From: Acidobacteriota bacterium
GTDB taxonomy: Bacteria; Acidobacteriota; Thermoanaerobaculia; Gp7-AA8
Reading direction: 5' to 3'
NCBI GenBank assembly: GCA_016184115.1
Contig: JACPDH010000006.1
Span: 1-33,144 of the forward strand
DNA: 33,144 nucleotides
Below are positions 2,921 through 20,183 of the stretch, piece by piece (positions within the stretch are counted from its first letter, which is position 1; each line of letters starts with the position of its first letter). The notes beneath the pieces are model-generated. The model had not been told where the DNA came from. It did no database searches and saw nothing but the letters and a program-made list of their open reading frames with translations. The translations under genes were made by a program, and so were the position numbers.

Positions 2921-2930
2921 TCGAGCGTGC

Positions 2931-3391
2931 GGGGTCAGGTCTTCGCTATTTCGAAAAATTGAAAATTCGCGCGGTCGCGTATGGACCATTCGAGCGAACG
3001 TCGGAGCCCACGAGCCCGGACTCTACCATTCGTGGATTCGTGAGCGTCATGACCTCGCAAGTCATTGATTCATCGGGCGCCAGCGCGAGGATGTAGACAA
3101 GCGTCGCGTCGGCTAGCCATCATTGGGTTGCAAATGAACAGCGATCACCGACCGCCGGCGGGCGAGATTATTCTCTACCAAACTGCGGATGGAACCACGC
3201 GCATCGAGTGCCGGTTCGTCGAGGAAACACTCTGGCTGAGTCAGGCCCTGATCGCGCAGCTCTTCCAGAAGGACGTTCGGACCGTCAACGAACATCTGCT
3301 GAATATCTACGCGAAGGAAGAGCTCGATCGAGAGGCAACTATCCGGAAATTCCGGATAGTTCGATCCGAGGGCTCCCGCGAGGTCTCTCGC
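2931..3391. repeat. Duplicated block, copy 1 (pair with 7354-7815)
   Basis: About 460 bp shared at high identity with 7354-7815 in the same orientation. Each copy begins with GGGGTCAGGTCTTC, runs through roughly 200 bp of non-coding DNA and ends inside the RhuM reading frame after a hairpin. The head GGGGTCAGGTC is shared with the RAYT-associated repeats further right. The pair bounds a 4.4 kb segment holding the AbiE and PIN modules, so recombination between copies could delete or circularise it. Confidence 0.88.
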
Positions 3392-3568
3392 GAAGTCGAC
3401 CACTACAACCTCGACGCCATTCTCGCCGTCGGAGCCGTCAGTGGCCGCCGAACATCGGGGGTCAGAGCCGAAGTGCGAAGTATTCGACGGCGCGTGGCAG
3501 GGCTTCTGATTTCCTCTGATTTCCGCTCATGGCGGTCGGGTGTCGGGTTCATAGATTCCGATTCCTGA
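3134..3568 (+). pseudogene. RhuM-family protein, 5' remnant
   Basis: Residues 1 to about 105 match the N-terminal part of RhuM (virulence/DNA-binding family often found inside type I restriction loci): an EIILYQTADG start, a VEETLWLSQALIAQLF helix region, RTVNEHL, ATIRKFRIV and YNLDAILAVG. Family members continue with a Tyr-Arg-Val-rich segment and a further 200 or so residues. Here the frame loses a codon or so at the GAVSGRR stretch and then runs into an unrelated repeat (3452-3602), ending at 3568. It is therefore a fragment rather than a working gene. ATG 3134 is chosen because similarity starts there and the second copy starts at the equivalent place (7557). Its position just after hsdR fits the known habit of RhuM genes. 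Confidence 0.75.
3337..3361. repeat. 12-bp perfect inverted repeat in the RhuM remnant
   Basis: Arms AACTATCCGGAA and TTCCGGATAGTT are separated by one base. The second RhuM copy has the equivalent hairpin (7754-7792) with paired base changes. Confidence 0.85.
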
Positions 3569-3602
3569 TTGGAGCGGAGGCCAGCAGGCCGCTGCCGCGA
3601 CC
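3452..3602. repeat. Direct repeat left of the AbiE locus (pair with 5442-5582)
   Basis: About 145 bp is shared with 5442-5582 in the same orientation, including GTCAGAGCCGAAGT, GGCTTCTGATTTCC, GGGTGTCGGGTTCAT and TGATTGGAGCGGAGGCCAGC. The two copies lie on either side of the AbiEi/AbiEii pair, with only the palindrome at 3617-3802 also inside. The stretch has no convincing gene of its own; it supplies the artificial C-terminal end of the RhuM remnant. Confidence 0.85.
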
Positions 3603-3616
3603 GGCATTTGGTTGAA

Positions 3617-3802
3617 CTAGCCCGGAATATCCATGAAGCTTCTGCTGCGGAGCGCGATAGCCGCGTGTCTACGGCGTTGCGCTCGGTTCGGCTCCTCGAC
3701 GTAGTACACGACTACGCCGTCGTCGCCGAACCCCTCGCGCGCCTTGTATCCACGCGTCTCTCGCGCTCCTCGCGACGAACCTTCATGAATATTCCGGACT
3801 AG
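3617..3802. repeat. 186-bp imperfect palindrome
   Basis: The outer arms CTAGCCCGGAATATCCATGA and the complement of TCATGAATATTCCGGACTAG differ at two positions. Pairing continues inward with interruptions to a central hairpin CGTAGT-ACACG-ACTACG at 3700-3716, so the whole unit folds on a centre near 3708. Both strands stay open in mirrored frames and would encode related peptides (RNIHE near one end, FMNIP or FMDIP near the other), which follows from the symmetry. It lies between the left direct repeat and the AbiE operator. Confidence 0.85.
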
Positions 3803-5436: not shown

Positions 5437-5441
5437 GGGGT

Positions 5442-5582
5442 CACATCGGGGCGTCAGAGCCGAAGTATGAAGTCCTCGATGGCGCGCGGCCGGGCTTCTG
5501 ATTTCCACTCATGGCGATAGGGTGTCGGGTTCATGGACTCTGGTTTCTGATTGGAGCGGAGGCCAGCAGGCCGCGGCTGCGA
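5442..5582. repeat. Direct repeat right of the AbiE locus (pair with 3452-3602)
   Basis: Second copy of the ~145 bp repeat described at 3452-3602, starting six bases after the AbiEii stop codon. No gene is visible in it. Confidence 0.85.
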
Positions 5583-5599
5583 CACTTCCGCCAGTCAGC

Positions 5600-5899
5600 G
5601 GGGTCAGGTCTTCGCTTTTCTGTTTGATGCGGATGCCCCAGGCTGTACCCCCGCGAACCGGCATGCGCCGGAGGTCTTATTGGCCGCGCCGCGCTGACGC
5701 ACGGCGCGAGCAGACGGCGCCGCTGCCGCGGTGCTGCTTCGCTGTTCCGTCGCGGTCCCCGCGCTGACGCGCGGGGCTAGCCAGAGGTCGCCGCTCGCGC
5801 GGCGAGCAGGAGCGAGCCGCAGGCCGGAAGCCGGCGGCGTACGGCGCTTGCGGAGTGCGGGGTCAGGTCTTCGCGTTCTCGAAAAATTGGAAATTCGAG
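5600..5899. repeat. Segment bounded by two GGGGTCAGGTCTTCGC heads
   Basis: The 16-mer GGGGTCAGGTCTTCGC occurs at 5600-5615 and 5859-5874 in the same orientation. The second is followed by TCGAAAAATTGGAAATTCG, as in the heads at 2931 and 7354. Between them lie short GC-rich palindromes such as CCCCGCG-CTGA-CGCGGGG (5758-5775) and GCCGGAAGCCGGC-type units, with no convincing gene. These look like degenerate REP-like repeats. Confidence 0.7.
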
Positions 5900-6255
5900 C
5901 ACCTGGGGTCACACCTCGAAAGTTTCCGTTCACCGGCCGTCGCGTCGTCGGCAGGTCGACGGCGACTAGTCCTCATGCGATAGCACGTCATCACGCAGGA
6001 CCCTGCAGTGGGACCAGCTCTTCGGGACGATGTGGTTGGCGACATCGCCCACGGATTTTGTGGAATCAGCGTGCGGCAGCGAAACTGCCGGGAAAGAGAA
6101 AGACACTCTCCAATCGTGACGACGCTGATGAGGGGGCGATCGGGGCGATGGCGGATCTGAAACTCGGCGTCGACGCGCTTACCGACCTCGTTGTCGCGAA
6201 TGAGGTGGATGACGATGCTCGTGTCGAGAAGAAGGAGCTCGCTCGCGCCGGTCAC
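5863..6255 (-). pseudogene. PIN-domain (VapC-type) toxin, 3' end lost
   Basis: The first 58 residues are a good PIN-domain start: LLLLDTSIVIHLIR with Asp11, then PLISVVTIGECLSLSRQF with Glu50. After about 6082 the frame leaves the family; the usual later acidic residues and the C-terminal half are absent, and the remaining ~70 codons read into REP-like sequence. The ribonuclease is therefore probably inactive. The start overlaps the stop codon of the upstream gene (6252-7169) by four bases, so the pair was translationally coupled like a toxin-antitoxin operon. Confidence 0.7.
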
Positions 6256-7169: not shown

Positions 7170-7353
7170 CGTATGCCGTTTCGTGACTCGATCTCCTCGC
7201 GGTGAGTCTACCTCGGTGGGCCGTCGATGTCCCTGCCCCTCGGTATTCGGCTTCGTCGTGATGCTGCCGCGTGTCGTTGTCAGCGCGATGTCAGAAGGGG
7301 TCTACAGCTTCTGTTTTCGCTTCAGGTGCGCGGCTCGCATGATCCACGCCTGC

Positions 7354-7815
7354 GGGGTCAGGTCTTCACTATTTCGAAAACTTGAAAATTCGCGCGGTCG
7401 CGTATGGACCATTCGCGCGATCGTCGGAGCCCACAAGCCCGGACTCTACCATTCGTGGATTCGTGAGCGTCATGACCTCGCAAGTCATTGATTCATCGGG
7501 CGCCAGCGCGAGGATGTAGACAAGCGTCGCATCGGCTAGCCATCATTGGGTTGTGAATGACCAGCGATCAACGACCGCCCGCGGGCGAGATCATCCTCTA
7601 CCAGACGGCGGACGGAACCACGCGGATCGAGTGCCGGTTCGTCGAGGAAACACTCTGGCTGAGCCCGGCCCTGATTGCGCAGCTCTTCCAGAAGGACGTT
7701 CGGACCGTGAACGAGCACCTCCGGAATGTGTACGTGGAGGGGCGAGTTGCCGCCGGATCGAACTATTCGGAAATTTCGAATAGTTCGATCCGAGGGCTCC
7801 CGCGAGGTCTCTCGC
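7354..7815. repeat. Duplicated block, copy 2 (pair with 2931-3391)
   Basis: Same content as the block at 2931-3391: a GGGGTCAGGTCTTCAC head, ~200 bp of non-coding DNA, then the RhuM start. Identity stops at the GAGGTCTCTCGC sequence ending at 7815. A short further match (GCCGTCAG-GGCCGCCGAAC) reappears near 7906-7925, so about 90 bp in between has been replaced. Confidence 0.87.
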
Positions 7816-7949
7816 TTGGGGGGTCAAAGCTTCGATTTTCGAGGCGCGGTCCGCAGGCGCGGCGTGAAGATTCTACTTCTCGTCGAGGGACTCCGTGGCG
7901 CGGAGGAGCCGTCAGCGGCCGCCGAACGGTCTCAGCGATCGAGGGTTAG
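7557..7949 (+). pseudogene. RhuM-family protein, second 5' remnant with frameshift
   Basis: Residues 1-60 match the first RhuM remnant closely (EIILYQTADG, VEETLWLSPALIAQLF, RTVNEHL). The frame then shifts near 7740; the expected TIRKFRIVRSEGSREVS continues in another frame to about 7815, after which similarity ends. This copy cannot make a RhuM protein. It shares its upstream 200 bp with the first copy. Confidence 0.72.
7754..7792. repeat. 16-bp perfect inverted repeat
   Basis: Arms CGGATCGAACTATTCG (7754-7769) and CGAATAGTTCGATCCG (7777-7792) with a 7-base loop. It is the counterpart of the hairpin at 3337-3361; the two differ by a paired C-to-T and G-to-A change that keeps the stem. Confidence 0.85.
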
Positions 7950-8114
7950 GCAGCGCCGGGTCGTTCCTGGAGGTGTGCAAGGTCGGGCCTCGGCGTCGCG
8001 TGCCACTTCTAGTAAGGGTCTTCGGTCTCGTTCGAGTCCAGGACAGAGCGAAGACGGAAACTCTGACCCTCGCGCTCACATCCTCCCTTGCACGCCGCGG
8101 AAACCTGTGGTTAG
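7816..8114. other. Intergenic stretch without a visible gene
   Basis: About 300 bp between the RhuM remnant and the ArsR operator. Apart from the short repeat match near 7906-7925, nothing recognisable is seen. A weak TTGCAC (8088-8093) followed after 18 bp by TAGATA (8112-8117) could be the ArsR promoter. Confidence 0.5.
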
Positions 8115-8138
8115 ATACTGAACCATATGGTTCAGTAT
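8115..8138 (+). promoter_or_regulatory. Perfect 24-bp palindrome over the arsR-family start codon
   Basis: ATACTGAACCAT is followed directly by its exact complement (centre 8126.5), and the second half begins with the ATG of the ArsR gene at 8127. ArsR-type repressors bind such dyads, so this is a likely autoregulatory operator. A -10-like GATACT at 8114-8119 overlaps it and would place the transcript start at or next to the ATG. Confidence 0.8.
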
Positions 8139-13026: not shown

Positions 13027-13104
13027 ACAGTGCTGATTCGTGCATCGGGCACCTCCTTGATCCGCGGGTGGCGCGGGTGGGGCGCGGGTGGGGTCACTGC
13101 GGGT

Positions 13105-14457
13105 GGGGTCAGGTCGGAAAAATGAAGAATTCGCGGGTGGGGTCAGGTCGGAAAAATGAAGAATTCGCAGGGCCCGGATCGGTTGGATCGCGAGTCGGCG
13201 CGGAAGGTGAGTTGCGCATGGGGGGTCAGGTCGGAAGAATGAAAGATTCGTGAGGGACCGACATATTCGCGATTCGGTCTCGGTGCCACGCGAGTGGCCT
13301 CTCCCGCTGGCTGGTCAGCGTTCGTGCTCGCCAGGATCGTCCGAGGCAAGCTGGCGACGAATTGTTCGGAGTGCCGCAGCGTAACCGGGGTCGCTTCGCT
13401 CGAGCTCGGTTCCTCGCTGGACGAGATGACCCACGGCGCGGCCGGTGAGATTCATCCATTCGCCGATTGCGACGAGCGGGAGCCCGGCCTCGGTCGATGC
13501 AAGATGAGCGAGCGCTTTCCTCGAAGGTCGATGCGAGCGGCAGCGCATTGACTCCGCGGTCTCTCCGAACGAAGTGGCGACCAATTCCACGATTGCCTCG
13601 AATTGCGCTCGGACCGGTCGACGCTGGATCGTCGGAAACTCCCGATCGACCTCGCGTGACGCCGCGAGCTTCTGCATTCGCTCGCAGAAGCGTTCTCCCC
13701 CGAGGTAGATCTGCCCGACGAGGTCCTCCCAGGGGTTCGCCCGCGCGCCGCGCCCGTCGGCCACGAACTCTCGATAACGCTTGCGTCGCTCGGCGCGTGA
13801 GCCTGGCGCGAACTGAGCGAGCGTCCAGTCTGTTTCGAGCCAGTCGGGGGCGGGCGCCAACCCCGCTGTGGCCCTGTAGCTGCTCCAGGCGTAGTCCCCG
13901 GCGTGCTCGACCGCACCACAACGCACCGGGTTGAGCACGATGTAGCGGACGAGCTCGAGAAGATGCGACTCCCTCTGGACGAGGATCGCGTTGAAGCGAC
14001 CCTGAAAGAGGTGACCGACTCGATGATGGGCCCGGTTGAAGTTCTGCGCGTAAAGGCCGTTCAGGCGCTTCACGCCTGTCGAGAGCGTGGGCTCCGGCGT
14101 TTCGATGAGCAGGTGGTAGTGGTTCGTCATCAGGACCCAGGCATGCAGGATCCAGTGGTGTTTCACGACCGATTCGGCGACGAGGCCGACGAAGTTGTGG
14201 CGGTCGTCGTCAGTGCGGAAGATCTCCCGACGTTCGTTGCCGCGACTCGTGACATGCCAGATCGCGCCAGGGTGCTCGAGGCGTAAGGGACGTGCCATTG
14301 GCAAGCGGAGGGGAGAGAAAGAGAGGGGACGTGGGATCCAGCGGCTCCCGAAGGCCACGGCGAGGTGTGCAGCGGAAGTCTACCTCGGGTGTGGGGGAAG
14401 TGGCGAATATTTCATTTTTCCGATCTGACCCCAGGGACATTTTTCCGATCTGACCCC
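13105..14457. mobile_element. RAYT element: Y1 transposase gene bracketed by inverted REP-like repeats
   Basis: On the left, three direct copies of a 29-bp repeat starting GGGGTCAGGTCGGAA lie at 13105-13133, 13139-13167 and 13222-13250 (the last with GAAGAATGAAAG). On the right, the complement occurs at 14404-14432 (ending TTTTTCCGATCTGACCCC) and a shorter one at 14438-14457. Between them lies the Y1 transposase gene. This is the arrangement of REP-associated tyrosine transposases, which process single-stranded REP hairpins. The same 29-mer bounds the elements at 15334-15789 and 19664-20120. Confidence 0.85.
13315..14298 (-). CDS. REP-associated tyrosine transposase (RAYT, Y1/HUH superfamily)
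   Basis: A protein of 327 residues. The N-terminal Y1 domain shows HVTSRGN (15-21), the HUH motif TNHYHLLIE (58-66, His60 and His62), the probable catalytic Tyr83 in GLYAQNFNR, and the family signature GHLFQGRFNAILV (95-107) and YIVLNPVRCG. Residues about 255-325 form a DnaA-C-like helix-turn-helix region found in some RAYT groups. RAYTs nick single-stranded REP sequences and are thought to mobilise them. ATG 14298 is chosen because family similarity begins at MARPLRLEHPG; the in-frame ATG 14358 would add an unlikely leader. There is no ribosome-binding site, so expression may be low. All catalytic residues are present, so the gene looks functional. Confidence 0.93.
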   Translation of the reverse strand: MARPLRLEHPGAIWHVTSRGNERREIFRTDDDRHNFVGLVAESVVKHHWILHAWVLMTNHYHLLIETPEPTLSTGVKRLNGLYAQNFNRAHHRVGHLFQGRFNAILVQRESHLLELVRYIVLNPVRCGAVEHAGDYAWSSYRATAGLAPAPDWLETDWTLAQFAPGSRAERRKRYREFVADGRGARANPWEDLVGQIYLGGERFCERMQKLAASREVDREFPTIQRRPVRAQFEAIVELVATSFGETAESMRCRSHRPSRKALAHLASTEAGLPLVAIGEWMNLTGRAVGHLVQRGTELERSDPGYAAALRTIRRQLASDDPGEHER

Positions 14458-14656
14458 AGGGATGACCCCAGGGAAGCCCCAGGGATGCGGACGGCGCTCC
14501 GTCGAGCAACGGCATCGTCGTCGCGTCGCTGCATCCTGTCTCGTCGATCGCCACGGCTCCCGTTGGTGCGGAGGAGAAGCGTGTCTTGGTCAGGGTTCAT
14601 CAGGGGCATGGCGGGTCCGCCGGAATAGCTTACCCATTACCGAGGTACTACGAGGC
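14299..14656. other. Intergenic region with REP ends
   Basis: It contains the inverted REP copies at 14404-14457 and then three CCCCAGGGA-type units to about 14490. From 14490 to 14656 no gene, RNA or clear promoter is seen. No strong Shine-Dalgarno is evident before ATG 14657. Confidence 0.55.
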
Positions 14657-14917
14657 ATGGCATTGCCGCAATCGAAGGTCACGGCGCAGGGGCAGATCTC
14701 TGTTCCGGCGGAGATTCGACGGGAGCTTGGCATCGGGCCGGGCACGGTCCTCGAGTGGGAAAAGGACGGCGACCAGGTCGTAGTCCGAAAGGCGGGGCGC
14801 TTCTCATCCGAGCAGATCCACGCGGCTCTCTTCGCGTCGCCACCGCGGGCACGGACGCAGAAGGAACTGAAGCAGGCGATCGCCCGGCACGTGAAGGCAA
14901 GGCATGAGGGCCGTTGA
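14657..14917 (+). CDS. AbrB/SpoVT-family antitoxin of a VapBC pair
   Basis: An 86-residue protein with a swapped-hairpin AbrB DNA-binding domain at its N-terminus: SKVTAQGQISVPAEIRRELG, GPGTVLEW and VVVRKAG. The C-terminal part (SSEQIHAALFASPPRARTQK and a basic helix) is the usual toxin-binding tail. Such proteins neutralise the PIN toxin encoded next to them and repress the operon. The gene overlaps the toxin gene by 14 bases. The frame is open upstream to 14462, but family similarity begins at ATG 14657. Confidence 0.9.
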   Translation: MALPQSKVTAQGQISVPAEIRRELGIGPGTVLEWEKDGDQVVVRKAGRFSSEQIHAALFASPPRARTQKELKQAIARHVKARHEGR

Positions 14918-15401
14918 CACGAATGTCCTCGTGCAACTCATCACGCGCGACGACGCGCGACAGGTCGAGGTTGCGGAGGAGTTCGTGGCGAGAGGCGCCT
15001 GGGTTTCGCAGGTCGTTCTCGTCGAGACGATATGGATGCTCGGGGCGGCGTACGGTATCGATCATGCCGGCATCGCCAGGGCGATAGGTATGCTGCTCGA
15101 TCACGACCGCCTCACGATCCAGGATTCCGACGTGGTCACGGCCGCGCTTTCCACATATCGAAAGAGGCCTTCGCTCGGATTCTCTGACTGCCTCGTCGTT
15201 GAAGTCGCGCGGAAGGCGGGACACTTGCCGCTCGGGACGTTCGACAGAAACCTGAGTCGCCTCGAAGGCGTGGAGAAGCTGCAGATTTCGCGCGGGAGGG
15301 GTCCACGGGTGGGGCACGGGTGGGGTCACGGGTGGGGTCAGGTCGGAAAAATGAAGAATTCGCGCAGGTTGGCTCAGGTCGGAAAAATGAAAGATTCGTG
15401 A
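14904..15401 (+). CDS. VapC-type PIN ribonuclease with REP-derived C-terminal tail
   Basis: A 165-residue frame. The PIN domain occupies residues 1 to about 128 with the acidic residues Asp5 (AVDTNVLV), Glu41 (LVETIWML), Asp95 (GFSDCLVVE) and Asp114 (GTFDRNLS), so the RNase site is complete. Family members normally end near the LEGVEKL stretch (121-126). Here the frame continues through the G-rich array and the REP repeat, giving a tail with two QVGKMK(N/D)S copies before stopping at 15401. The original stop codon was evidently replaced when the mobile element arrived. Whether the tail affects activity or stability is unknown. Confidence 0.87.
   Translation: MRAVDTNVLVQLITRDDARQVEVAEEFVARGAWVSQVVLVETIWMLGAAYGIDHAGIARAIGMLLDHDRLTIQDSDVVTAALSTYRKRPSLGFSDCLVVEVARKAGHLPLGTFDRNLSRLEGVEKLQISRGRGPRVGHGWGHGWGQVGKMKNSRRLAQVGKMKDS
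15300..15340 (+). repeat. G-rich tandem array at the left edge of copy 1
   Basis: Units of the type CGGGTGGGGTCA are repeated about three times just before the 29-bp end. Similar arrays precede the RAYT element (13068-13110) and copy 2 (19605-19630). Runs of three to four Gs could form a quadruplex. Confidence 0.7.
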
Positions 15402-15789
15402 GGTGCCGACATAATCGGTCGCGAATCGGTCTGGGTGGTGGGCGAGTAGGTCATCTCCTCGTGGCTGTTCAGGGCACGTTGGTGGGGTCAGGTCTCGAAC
15501 CTGTACTTTTGTCGTGCCAAAGTACAGGTTCGAGGCCTGATACGCATATGGGCATACCTAACGCGTGGGCTGGCAGCTTCGCGGATGAGGGACGTGCCGG
15601 AGGCACGAATCACCACTCTATGCGACGATTGAGTTGCGAGCCAATGGGGGCAGATCGAGACAATGGAAGATCCCGGAGTTGCTAACGGTGGGCTCGAAAT
15701 CCTCGCCGGGATGGCGGGCGGGGCGTCGAAGGGCGCGCCGAACGGAAACGGGACAGACTTCGAATTCTTCATTTTTCCGACCTGACCCC
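15334..15789. mobile_element. Non-autonomous REP/RAYT-derived element, copy 1
   Basis: 456 bp with perfect 29-bp terminal inverted repeats: 15334-15362, beginning GGGGTCAGGTCGGAAAAATG, and its exact complement at 15761-15789. The stretch from about 15373 to 15480 aligns with the DNA 3' of the RAYT gene (13224-13330, including its stop region), so the element looks like a deletion derivative. Inside is a hairpin with perfect 15-bp arms TCGAACCTGTACTTT (15495-15509) and its complement (15519-15533), itself preceded by GGGGTCAGGTC. It encodes no transposase. It is nearly identical to 19664-20120. Confidence 0.88.
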
Positions 15790-18869: not shown

Positions 18870-19614
18870 TCAGGGTTCCGGTCGCGCAACGGCTTTGCGC
18901 CCCGTCAGCAGGAAGAGCGGCATCGGCCCCAGACTCTTGGCCTCGATCGTTCCTAGCGCCTCGAATTCGAAATCGTCCTCGAGCAGCGCTAGGGTTTCGT
19001 CCCTCACCTGGATCGCGCCCGGAATTCCGTGCGATTCCATGCGCGATGCTGTATTGACCGTGTCTCCCCAGAGGTCGTAGATGAACTTCTTCGTGCCGAT
19101 CACTCCGGCGACCGCAGGGCCACTGTGAATCCCGATTCGTAGCGCGAGCGGTTGCCGGGCGCTTGTCCTGTGACATCCGTAACGCAACTTCGCCGCCGAC
19201 GACCGCATGGTCCGCCCGAGGACTCAGAATCCCGCCAGCGACCATGTACGAGTCGCCCATTGTTTTGATCTTCTCGAGCCCGTACTGTGCAGTCAGGTTG
19301 TCGAACCGGCTGAACACGTCGTTGAGGAACACCACGACGTCTTCCGGCGGAAGCGTCGCCGACATCTTCGTGTAGTTGACGACGTCGGCGAAGAGGACGG
19401 TCACGCTCTCGAAGCGGTCGGCAATGACGCGACTATCCTCCTTGAGCCGCGCCGCAGTCGGCCCGGGTAGTACGTTGAGCAGCAGCAAGTCCGACTTCGC
19501 ACGCTCCGCCTCCAGTGCGGCTTCCGCACGTTGGGCGAGTGAGAGCGAGTAAATGACGAACCCGATCGCGATGATGTAGGCGTTCGATGCGTGGACGAGG
19601 TTCAGCCGGGTGGG
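18870..19614 (-). pseudogene. Adenylate/guanylate cyclase, truncated and frameshifted
   Basis: A class III cyclase remnant. From 19614 downward it reads a membrane helix (AYIIAIGFVIYSLSLAQ), a coiled linker, LLLNVLPGPTAARLK, then the catalytic domain with VTVLFADVVNYTKMSA (metal Asp), EKIKTMGDSYMVAGG (second metal Asp) and VALRM. Near 19160-19180 the frame changes and some residues are missing; the rest continues in another frame as LALRIGIHSGPAVAGVIGTK, then DLWGDTVNTASRMESHG and a normal end at 18870. The N-terminal membrane region is cut off at about 19614 by the REP element and G-rich array at 19605-20120. It cannot yield a normal cyclase. Confidence 0.85.
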
Positions 19615-19625
19615 GTCAGCCGGGT

Positions 19626-20120
19626 GGGGTCAGGTCGGAAAAATGAAGAATTCGGAACCCGGTGGGGTCAGGTCGGAAAAATGAAGAATTCGCGCAGGTT
19701 GGCTCAGGTCGGAAGAATGAAAGATTCGTGAGGCGCCGACATAATCGGTCGCGAATCGGTCTGGGTGGTGGGCGAGTAGGTCATCTCCTCATGGCTGGTC
19801 AGGGCACGTCGGTGGGGTCAGGTCTCGAACCTGTACTCTAGTCGTGCCAAAGTACAGGTTCGAGGCCTGATACGCATATGGGCATACCTAACGTGCGGGC
19901 TAGCAGCTTCGCGGATTAGGGAGGTGCCGGAGGCACGAATCACCACTCTATGCGACGATTGAGTTGCGAGCCAATGGGGGCAGATCGAGACAATGGAAGA
20001 TCCCGGAGTTGCTAACGGTGGGCTCGAAATCCTCGCCGGGATGGACGGGTGGGGCGTCGAAGGGCGCGCCGAACGGAAACGGGACAGACTTCGAATTCTT
20101 CATTTTTCCGACCTGACCCC
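19626..20120. mobile_element. Non-autonomous REP/RAYT-derived element, copy 2
   Basis: The core is 19664-20120 (457 bp), with the 29-bp end at 19664-19692 and its exact complement at 20092-20120. An extra direct copy of the end lies at 19626-19654. The internal sequence is nearly identical to 15334-15789, including the hairpin at 19825-19863, whose left arm has one mismatch. It is in the same orientation as copy 1, 4.3 kb away, and abuts the truncated cyclase. Confidence 0.88.
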
Positions 20121-20155
20121 ACGCTTGGACCCCACGCTTGCTGACCCCACGCTCC
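20121..20155. repeat. C-rich tandem units at the right edge of copy 2
   Basis: GACCCCACGCTT-type units repeat about three times directly after the inverted end. Copy 1 has two such units (15784-15811). Confidence 0.65.
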
Positions 20156-20183
20156 GAGCTCCTGCATTCGCTCGCAGAAGCGT
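20156..20183 (-). pseudogene. Fragment of a RAYT gene
   Basis: 28 bp match 13666-13693 inside the RAYT gene with one difference, in the same reading frame (RFCERMQ followed by LA or LG). It sits right after copy 2 and suggests that a second, now mostly deleted, transposase gene accompanied this element. Confidence 0.55.

Follow-up and report, generated by a model that had tools for sequence, protein, structure and literature searches.

Outside the TIRs of a RAYT-related transposon in an Acidobacteriota genome, words of host flank stand in series, each followed by a truncated TIR head, and the word differs at every site. These flank-plus-truncated-head ladders are apparently undescribed; searchable open-access text, figures and supplements aside, yielded no earlier description. 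One possible reading, to which we give a little short of an even chance, is that the transposase (TIRYT), working on TIR ends that the chromosome already contains, left the ladders as strand-transfer scars, the transposon (E1) being a TIRtron. The window analyzed here is the whole stretch of 33,144 nucleotides, taken from contig C19 of Acidobacteriota bacterium assembly GCA_016184115.1 (4.42 Mb, 126 contigs). Labels beginning with C denote contigs of this genome unless G-prefixed, L denotes a locus, and G a genome. E1 and the related elements of the window comprise the following features.

13105 to 13133, plus strand: outer left 29-mer, copy 1
13139 to 13167, plus strand: outer left 29-mer, copy 2; 13136-13198 resembles the end of the C61 non-autonomous element
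13222 to 13250, plus strand: innermost left TIR of E1, GGGGTCAGGTCGGAAGAATGAAAGATTCG, with subterminal DNA common to E1, E2, and E3
13315 to 14298, minus strand: TIRYT gene, HUH Y1 transposase of 327 amino acids (H60, H62, catalytic Y119, class-2 Y---NP)
14404 to 14432, minus strand: right TIR of E1, GGGGTCAGATCGGAAAAATGAAATATTCG, a full inverted copy
14438 to 14457: truncated right copy of 20 nt, part of the right ladder
15334 to 15789: E2, with the same TIRs and no transposase; left TIR 15334-15362, right TIR 15761-15789
19626 to 20120: E3, non-autonomous; TIRs at 19626 and 19664 (plus) and at 20092-20120 (minus)
20149 to 20183, minus strand: TIRYT gene relic of 35 nt, adjoining the right ladder of E3 and 91% identical to 13659-13693

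The transposase gene runs on the minus strand from an ATG at 14298 to a stop at 13315 with its reading frame intact. In a profile search, the protein matches PF01797 (39.5 bits, cut-off 23) and NCBIfam NF047646, "REP-associated tyrosine transposase" (85.2-85.4 bits, cut-off 80); its NF033573 score, 12.4 bits, is below the cut-off of 55. By sequence, the protein has a single PDB relative, 4er8, which carries the annotation TnpArep. These matches bear out the original prediction of an intact HUH transposase gene, and its choice of His60 and His62 as the HUH residues is also right: the His residues of NHYH (H60, H62) and the Tyr of YIVLNP (Y119) are invariant in all five aligned paralogues. The prediction had taken Tyr83 as catalytic, however, and that assignment fails. 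The class-2 Y---NP motif places the catalytic Tyr at Y119 (RYIVLNP), and position 83 is Trp in one of the five paralogues. Typical of TIRYTs are an NH[YF]H or NHVH motif, Y---NP, and a C-terminal extension resembling HTH or DnaA_C. The protein of the window continues for ~190 amino acids after the core, and only one of the five paralogues has a weak HTH_38 match (E 0.004). The genome holds eight Y1_Tnp matches, five of them in the larger TIRYT group.

The main text of PMC3733652 (Di Nocera 2013) named TIRtrons and TIRYTs, with the TIR motif GGGGWSAS and Acidobacteria as the sharpest group, and that of PMC6006769 (Quentin 2018) matched most TIRYTs to TnpAY1 subclass 2.1. The head of E1, left and right, is GGGGTCAG, which fits GGGGWSAS. 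Judged by its sequence, E1 is a TIRtron: a RAYT-related HUH transposase, TnpAY1 subclass 2.1-like, between GGGGWSAS inverted repeats. It is not a GTAG REPtron. The earlier view of E1, in which a transposase gene lies between inverted copies and derivatives exist, is upheld, but the element is no new alternative to a domesticated RAYT, since the TIRtron/TIRYT was described in 2013 (PMC3733652). Across phyla, 82% of 283 inverted-paired ends have GGGGTCA plus G at position 8, in a search whose pattern fixed GGGG[AT][CG]A. Copy number and non-autonomous derivatives suggest that E1 and its relatives are mobile.

The 29-mer GGGGTCAGGTCGGAAAAATGAAGAATTCG stands in inverted copies on both sides of the gene and also bounds E2 and E3. 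Its predicted arrangement was found again: three copies on the left (13105, 13139, 13222), one and a half on the right (14404-14432, 14438-14457), and further copies at the ends of two other elements, E2 (15334-15789) and E3 (19626/19664-20120). The left array is composite: the segment 13136-13198 shares 87% identity over 63 nt with an element end from a non-autonomous C61 family, and because of this match 13222-13250 alone is probably the left TIR that belongs to E1 itself. TIRs across the family fold no better than chance (mean -1.7 kcal/mol versus -1.8 for shuffled sequence), and the 29-mer is therefore not REP-like in structure. Thus, of the bracketed REP-like array originally proposed, the bracketing copies remain, but the left array is composite and folding gives no REP hairpin.

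Counted genome-wide, as had been proposed, a 22-nt degenerate pattern covering the head of the 29-mer has 21 matches in the 4.4-Mb genome, and the reversed control of this pattern has none; the repeat is not due to chance. The pattern is also without a match in 395 other genomes sampled from the phylum, 54 of them with some TIRYT. Occurrence of the 29-mer in genomes lacking this TIRYT clade, named beforehand as evidence against the proposal, was thus seen in 0 of 395 genomes. Because of this absence, the 29-mer is specific to its own genome among those sampled, and probably to its own TIRYT lineage. The shorter GGGGTCAGGTC alone has 57 matches in the genome, roughly half of which are isolated 11-mers inside genes, and copy number was therefore taken from the longer pattern.

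The predicted derivatives do exist: E2, E3, and elements on contigs C18 and C61 share TIR and subterminal DNA, the C61 elements having the subterminal DNA of E1 in common. E2 and E3 are 96% identical over 482 nt, and the C18 elements are three related copies of ~170 nt, 82-85% alike. Other TIRYTs in the genome have TIRs of their own (GGGGTCACACCGAAAG on C34 and C94, GGGGTCAGACCC on C59), in which the same head is joined to a different tail. Within the window, the elements at 2931, 5600, 5859, and 7354 have GGGGTCAGGTCTTCGC or near variants as their TIR. Copies with this second TIR type, at 2925-3620, 5440-5960, and 7348-8130, are ~90% alike over 481 nt and carry duplicated pieces of a RhuM-like ORF. 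Next to E2, a VapC-like PIN-domain ORF (14904-15401, plus strand) lies beside an AbrB-like antitoxin, both names coming from a reading of the sequence; the ORF runs into the E2 ladder and TIR, so that its C-terminal tail (GHGWGHGWGQVGKMKNSRRLAQVGKMKDS) is encoded by ladder and repeats. Elsewhere in the genome, a tandem duplication of 227 nt (91%) on C59 (L049, 4470-4930) repeats the 3' end of another TIRYT gene plus its TIR, and on C98 (L002) some ten GTGTCGCGTAGCTCCATCCC units in tandem come after a different Y1 gene. A Pseudomonas aeruginosa record (NZ_CP116719.1, L381) has Y1 transposase genes in alternation with contact-dependent inhibition-like cassette genes.

The graded truncated copies around E1, E2, and E3 had been overlooked in the original prediction. 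They read as follows.

13062 to 13138, plus strand: left ladder of E1, (C)CGCGGGT-GG-CGCGGGT-GGGG-CGCGGGT-GGGGTCA-CTGCGGGT-full 29-mer-CGGGT-full 29-mer; rungs of 2, 4, 7, and 29 nt
14433 to 14487, minus strand: right ladder of E1, read inwards, CATCCCT-GGGG-CTTCCCT-GGGGTCA-TCCCT-GGGGTCAGATCGGAAAAATG-TCCCT-full TIR; rungs of 4, 7, and 20 nt
15304 to 15333, plus strand: left ladder of E2, CACGGGT-GGGG-CACGGGT-GGGGTCA-CGGGT-TIR
19608 to 19625, plus strand: left ladder of E3, CAGCCGGGT-GGGGTCA-GCCGGGT-TIR
20121 to 20150, minus strand: right ladder of E3, AGCGT-GGGGTCAG-CAAGCGT-GGGGTC-CAAGCGT-TIR

Such ladders are widespread. Loci were gathered by protein similarity and by TIR-head pattern, and ends were verified by a second copy within the locus. 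Rungs were found at 43 of 320 TIR ends chosen without reference to ladders, in many phyla, with ~0.2 expected by chance and with parser thresholds that had been set after the ladders of the window were seen. At least one rung was present at 31 of 256 strictly verified RAYT-linked (protein-selected) ends, 8 of 35 in the own genome, and 4 of 29 selected by TIR head, against expectations from dinucleotide-shuffled upstream DNA of ~0.15, 0.05, and 0, respectively. Only strict, near-exact rungs were counted, so these rates are lower bounds. A paired-head scan of the phylum was contaminated by unrelated GGGGTCA arrays in some genomes, and its loci were for that reason left out of the rates. A scan free of any head motif, covering -300 to +200 around 242 TIR ends, returned 51 tandem-duplication blocks; 28 of these are centered between -25 and 0 of the head, and most others belong to the facing end or to outer heads. 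As a control from one species, 71 GTAG REP ends in 400 kb of E. coli MG1655 showed no rung and no tandem-duplication block over the same -300 to +200 interval. The hosts of ladders include Acidobacteriota, Nitrospirota, desulfobacteria, Gammaproteobacteria, and others. Most of the sources are metagenome assemblies, and at least one, that of Desulfospira joergensenii DSM 10085 (L076), is an isolate genome. Among the clearest cases is that of a Nitrospirae MAG (L133), in which CGGAACTTCTT or a near copy precedes, in turn, 7, 13, 16+7, and 31 nt and the full TIR.

Several properties of the ladders constrain their mechanism. Rungs start precisely at the head in every case and are confined to TIR junctions. 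Their end point falls after GGGGTCA (n=7) in 17 of 32 unambiguous rungs (weighted, 33.8 of 88), and on the other strand this junction is C|TGACCCC, with C|T in each case. About half of the unambiguous rungs end elsewhere (2, 4, 6, 8, 12-14, 20-22), at junctions that are not C|T. The n=7 end point occurs with 24 of 64 heads having G at position 8 versus 0 of 11 otherwise (p=0.013), a comparison with a confounder, since under a guide model non-G heads would have covarying sites as well. Microhomology of at least 1 nt is present at the junctions of 20 of 56 rungs, below the ~44% that we estimate for blunt joins. The flank word is 5-16 nt long among detected cases (detection minimum 5) and varies little within a site. 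A search for a motif where the flank is cut, at the start of the flank word, gave no clear one, so that only one side of the reaction looks enzyme-specified. Across 128 element pairs, direct flank repeats of at least 3 nt, as a target-site duplication would leave, number 3 versus 4.7 expected from shuffled pairs. Inverted flank matches of at least 3 nt number 25 versus 4.4 expected, an excess partly inflated by TIR subfamilies with longer TIRs. Two simpler descriptions were set aside. A strictly growing ladder is not the rule, as multi-rung ladders increase or decrease toward the element (e.g. 13,7 and 21,7), and hairpin-driven slippage is disfavored, since the TIRs have no folding advantage over shuffled sequence.

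The TnpAREP enzymes studied cleave single-stranded DNA at C|T, and an attacking 3'-OH becomes linked to that T in vitro (PMC8266576). Such a joining at C|TGACCCC would yield the n=7 rung. The C|T rule derives from groups 2.2 and 2.5 and not from subclass 2.1, that of TIRYT; a literature search for biochemistry of subclass 2.1 enzymes found none. We predict that TIRYT, as an HUH single-strand endonuclease/ligase, would recognize the GGGGTCAG foot of the 29-bp TIR and would mobilize its own gene together with the non-autonomous elements that have the same TIR. It would cut the strand opposite the head at C|TGACCCC and stay joined to the 5' end through its tyrosine. A strand with a free 3'-OH, once its copying had run a few nucleotides beyond the element into host flank, could then attack the tyrosine-held 5' end, and the joined product would be flank-GGGGTCA-flank-full TIR. 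Repetition of the event, or cuts at other positions, would give graded rungs of 2, 4, 7, 13, 20, and 29 nt, and a 3' end coming from the opposite end of the element would lead to inverted flank capture instead. Catalysis of the ladders by TIRYT, the strand involved, and the order and timing of events are what we infer from these analyses. The TIRYT model would account for where the n=7 rungs end, for blunt joining, and for a flank cut that lacks specificity, but not for the other rung lengths.

In a fuller form, which we put forward more tentatively, TIRYT repeatedly rewrites the host-transposon junction by cutting opposite the GGGGTCA foot and splicing in newly copied flank, and the chromosome would be a record of abortive single-strand transfers. 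The same joining may move flank between two ends and so lengthen the inverted repeats. No description of such local DNA editing by HUH enzymes was found in searchable open-access text.

Two sister species (G266 and G290), 97-99% identical at most flanks, have gained or lost sequence at the edges of orthologous TIR sites, which indicates that TIR edges are unstable on a short time scale. At one pair of loci (L416 and L424, ~93% identical overall), a 29-nt block differs at one edge. At another (G290:C140 and G266:C492), one species has a full element and the other a collapsed one, and the difference includes an additional TGACCCC together with opposite-flank sequence in inverted orientation. A clean empty site was not found between these species, whose orthologous sites differ, nor between G246 and G421, in which flanks are rearranged; plasmids and phages had too few relatives for empty-site comparison. 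In the genus of the sister species, the elements at four loci (L416, L421, L424, and L426) form long, nearly perfect palindromes, their flanks too being inverted copies, and one intergenic site holds different hairpins in each species.

The main and serious rival, in our judgment unlikely, is that the ladders arise from errors of the host's replication, in which the polymerase backtracks or switches template at inverted repeats, with TIRYT only supplying the repeats. Inverted repeats are known to provoke template switching (PMC7202029), and the inverted flank capture at one TIR site and the palindromic flanks in G266/G290, like the above-chance inverted flank matches (25 versus 4.4), would follow from it. 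It sits less well with TIRs that fold like shuffled sequence, with junctions that lack excess microhomology, and with an end point that is sequence-specific at GGGGTCA|. The strongly palindromic REPs of E. coli, moreover, have ladders at 0 of 71 ends and no tandem-duplication block.

Repeated abortive insertion of TIR fragments into the same target, one insertion per rung and each with duplication of the target word, would explain why the repeated word is host sequence, unique per site and nearly constant within it. Complete insertions have no target-site duplication, however, rungs always begin at the exact head and solely at TIR junctions, and the same base would have to be hit repeatedly; we regard this explanation as improbable. 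We think it very improbable that the gene is a domesticated RAYT with a REP-like cellular function and the 29-mers ordinary REPs. The gene family does lie within the RAYT superfamily, but the repeats have neither a GTAG foot nor a hairpin, TIRs bound the element, and the genome holds five divergent TIRYTs and non-autonomous derivatives. An assembly artefact at repeats, which the prevalence of metagenome assemblies among the source genomes might suggest, seems scarcely credible: independent occurrences of the pattern span many phyla, the words are site-specific and the end points sharp, and at least one isolate genome (L076) has a ladder.

The in vivo action of RAYT-like enzymes is poorly understood, and their part in spreading REPs has so far been inferred. 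Because the ladders are frequent, are linked to flanks that are known, and end at a sharply defined point, they could serve as a natural readout of the sites at which the enzyme cuts and joins. If the TIRYT model is true, TIRYT activity would be measurable by sequencing TIR edges and so testable in living cells, and the cleavage site of an uncharacterized subclass would be predicted as C|TGACCCC. The TIR clusters reported in 2013 may then stem from local rewriting besides separate insertions.

E1 can be set beside several known systems. With TIRtrons and TIRYTs it shares an HUH/Y1 transposase larger than E. coli-type RAYTs, bounding GGGGWSAS TIRs, and TIR repeat families that occur as dimers and clusters and are well represented in Acidobacteria; graded ladders are absent from the main text of the descriptions of these systems (PMC3733652, PMC6006769), figures and supplements aside. 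Like the REPtron/RAYT/TnpAREP systems (E. coli rayT, REPINs), E1 has a Y---NP HUH transposase flanked by an inverted dispersed repeat, and C|T cleavage is the biochemical parallel. REPtrons have a GTAG/GTGG foot and a stable REP hairpin, whereas E1 has neither, and ladders stand at 0 of 71 E. coli REP ends. The Y1 HUH catalytic core and the lack of target-site duplication are shared with IS200/IS605, but those elements have asymmetric hairpin ends and Y---Q where E1 has inverted TIRs and Y---NP. E2, E3, and the C18 and C61 copies resemble bacterial MITEs in being short non-autonomous elements with the TIRs of an autonomous element; the partner transposase of MITEs is a DDE enzyme, whereas that of E2 and E3 is an HUH enzyme, with no target-site duplication. 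Quasipalindrome template-switch mutations likewise rewrite DNA locally at inverted repeats, and the inverted flank capture in G290 is of that kind, but the ladders are built of rungs in direct tandem, their end point is fixed at 7 nt, and they show no clear hairpin.
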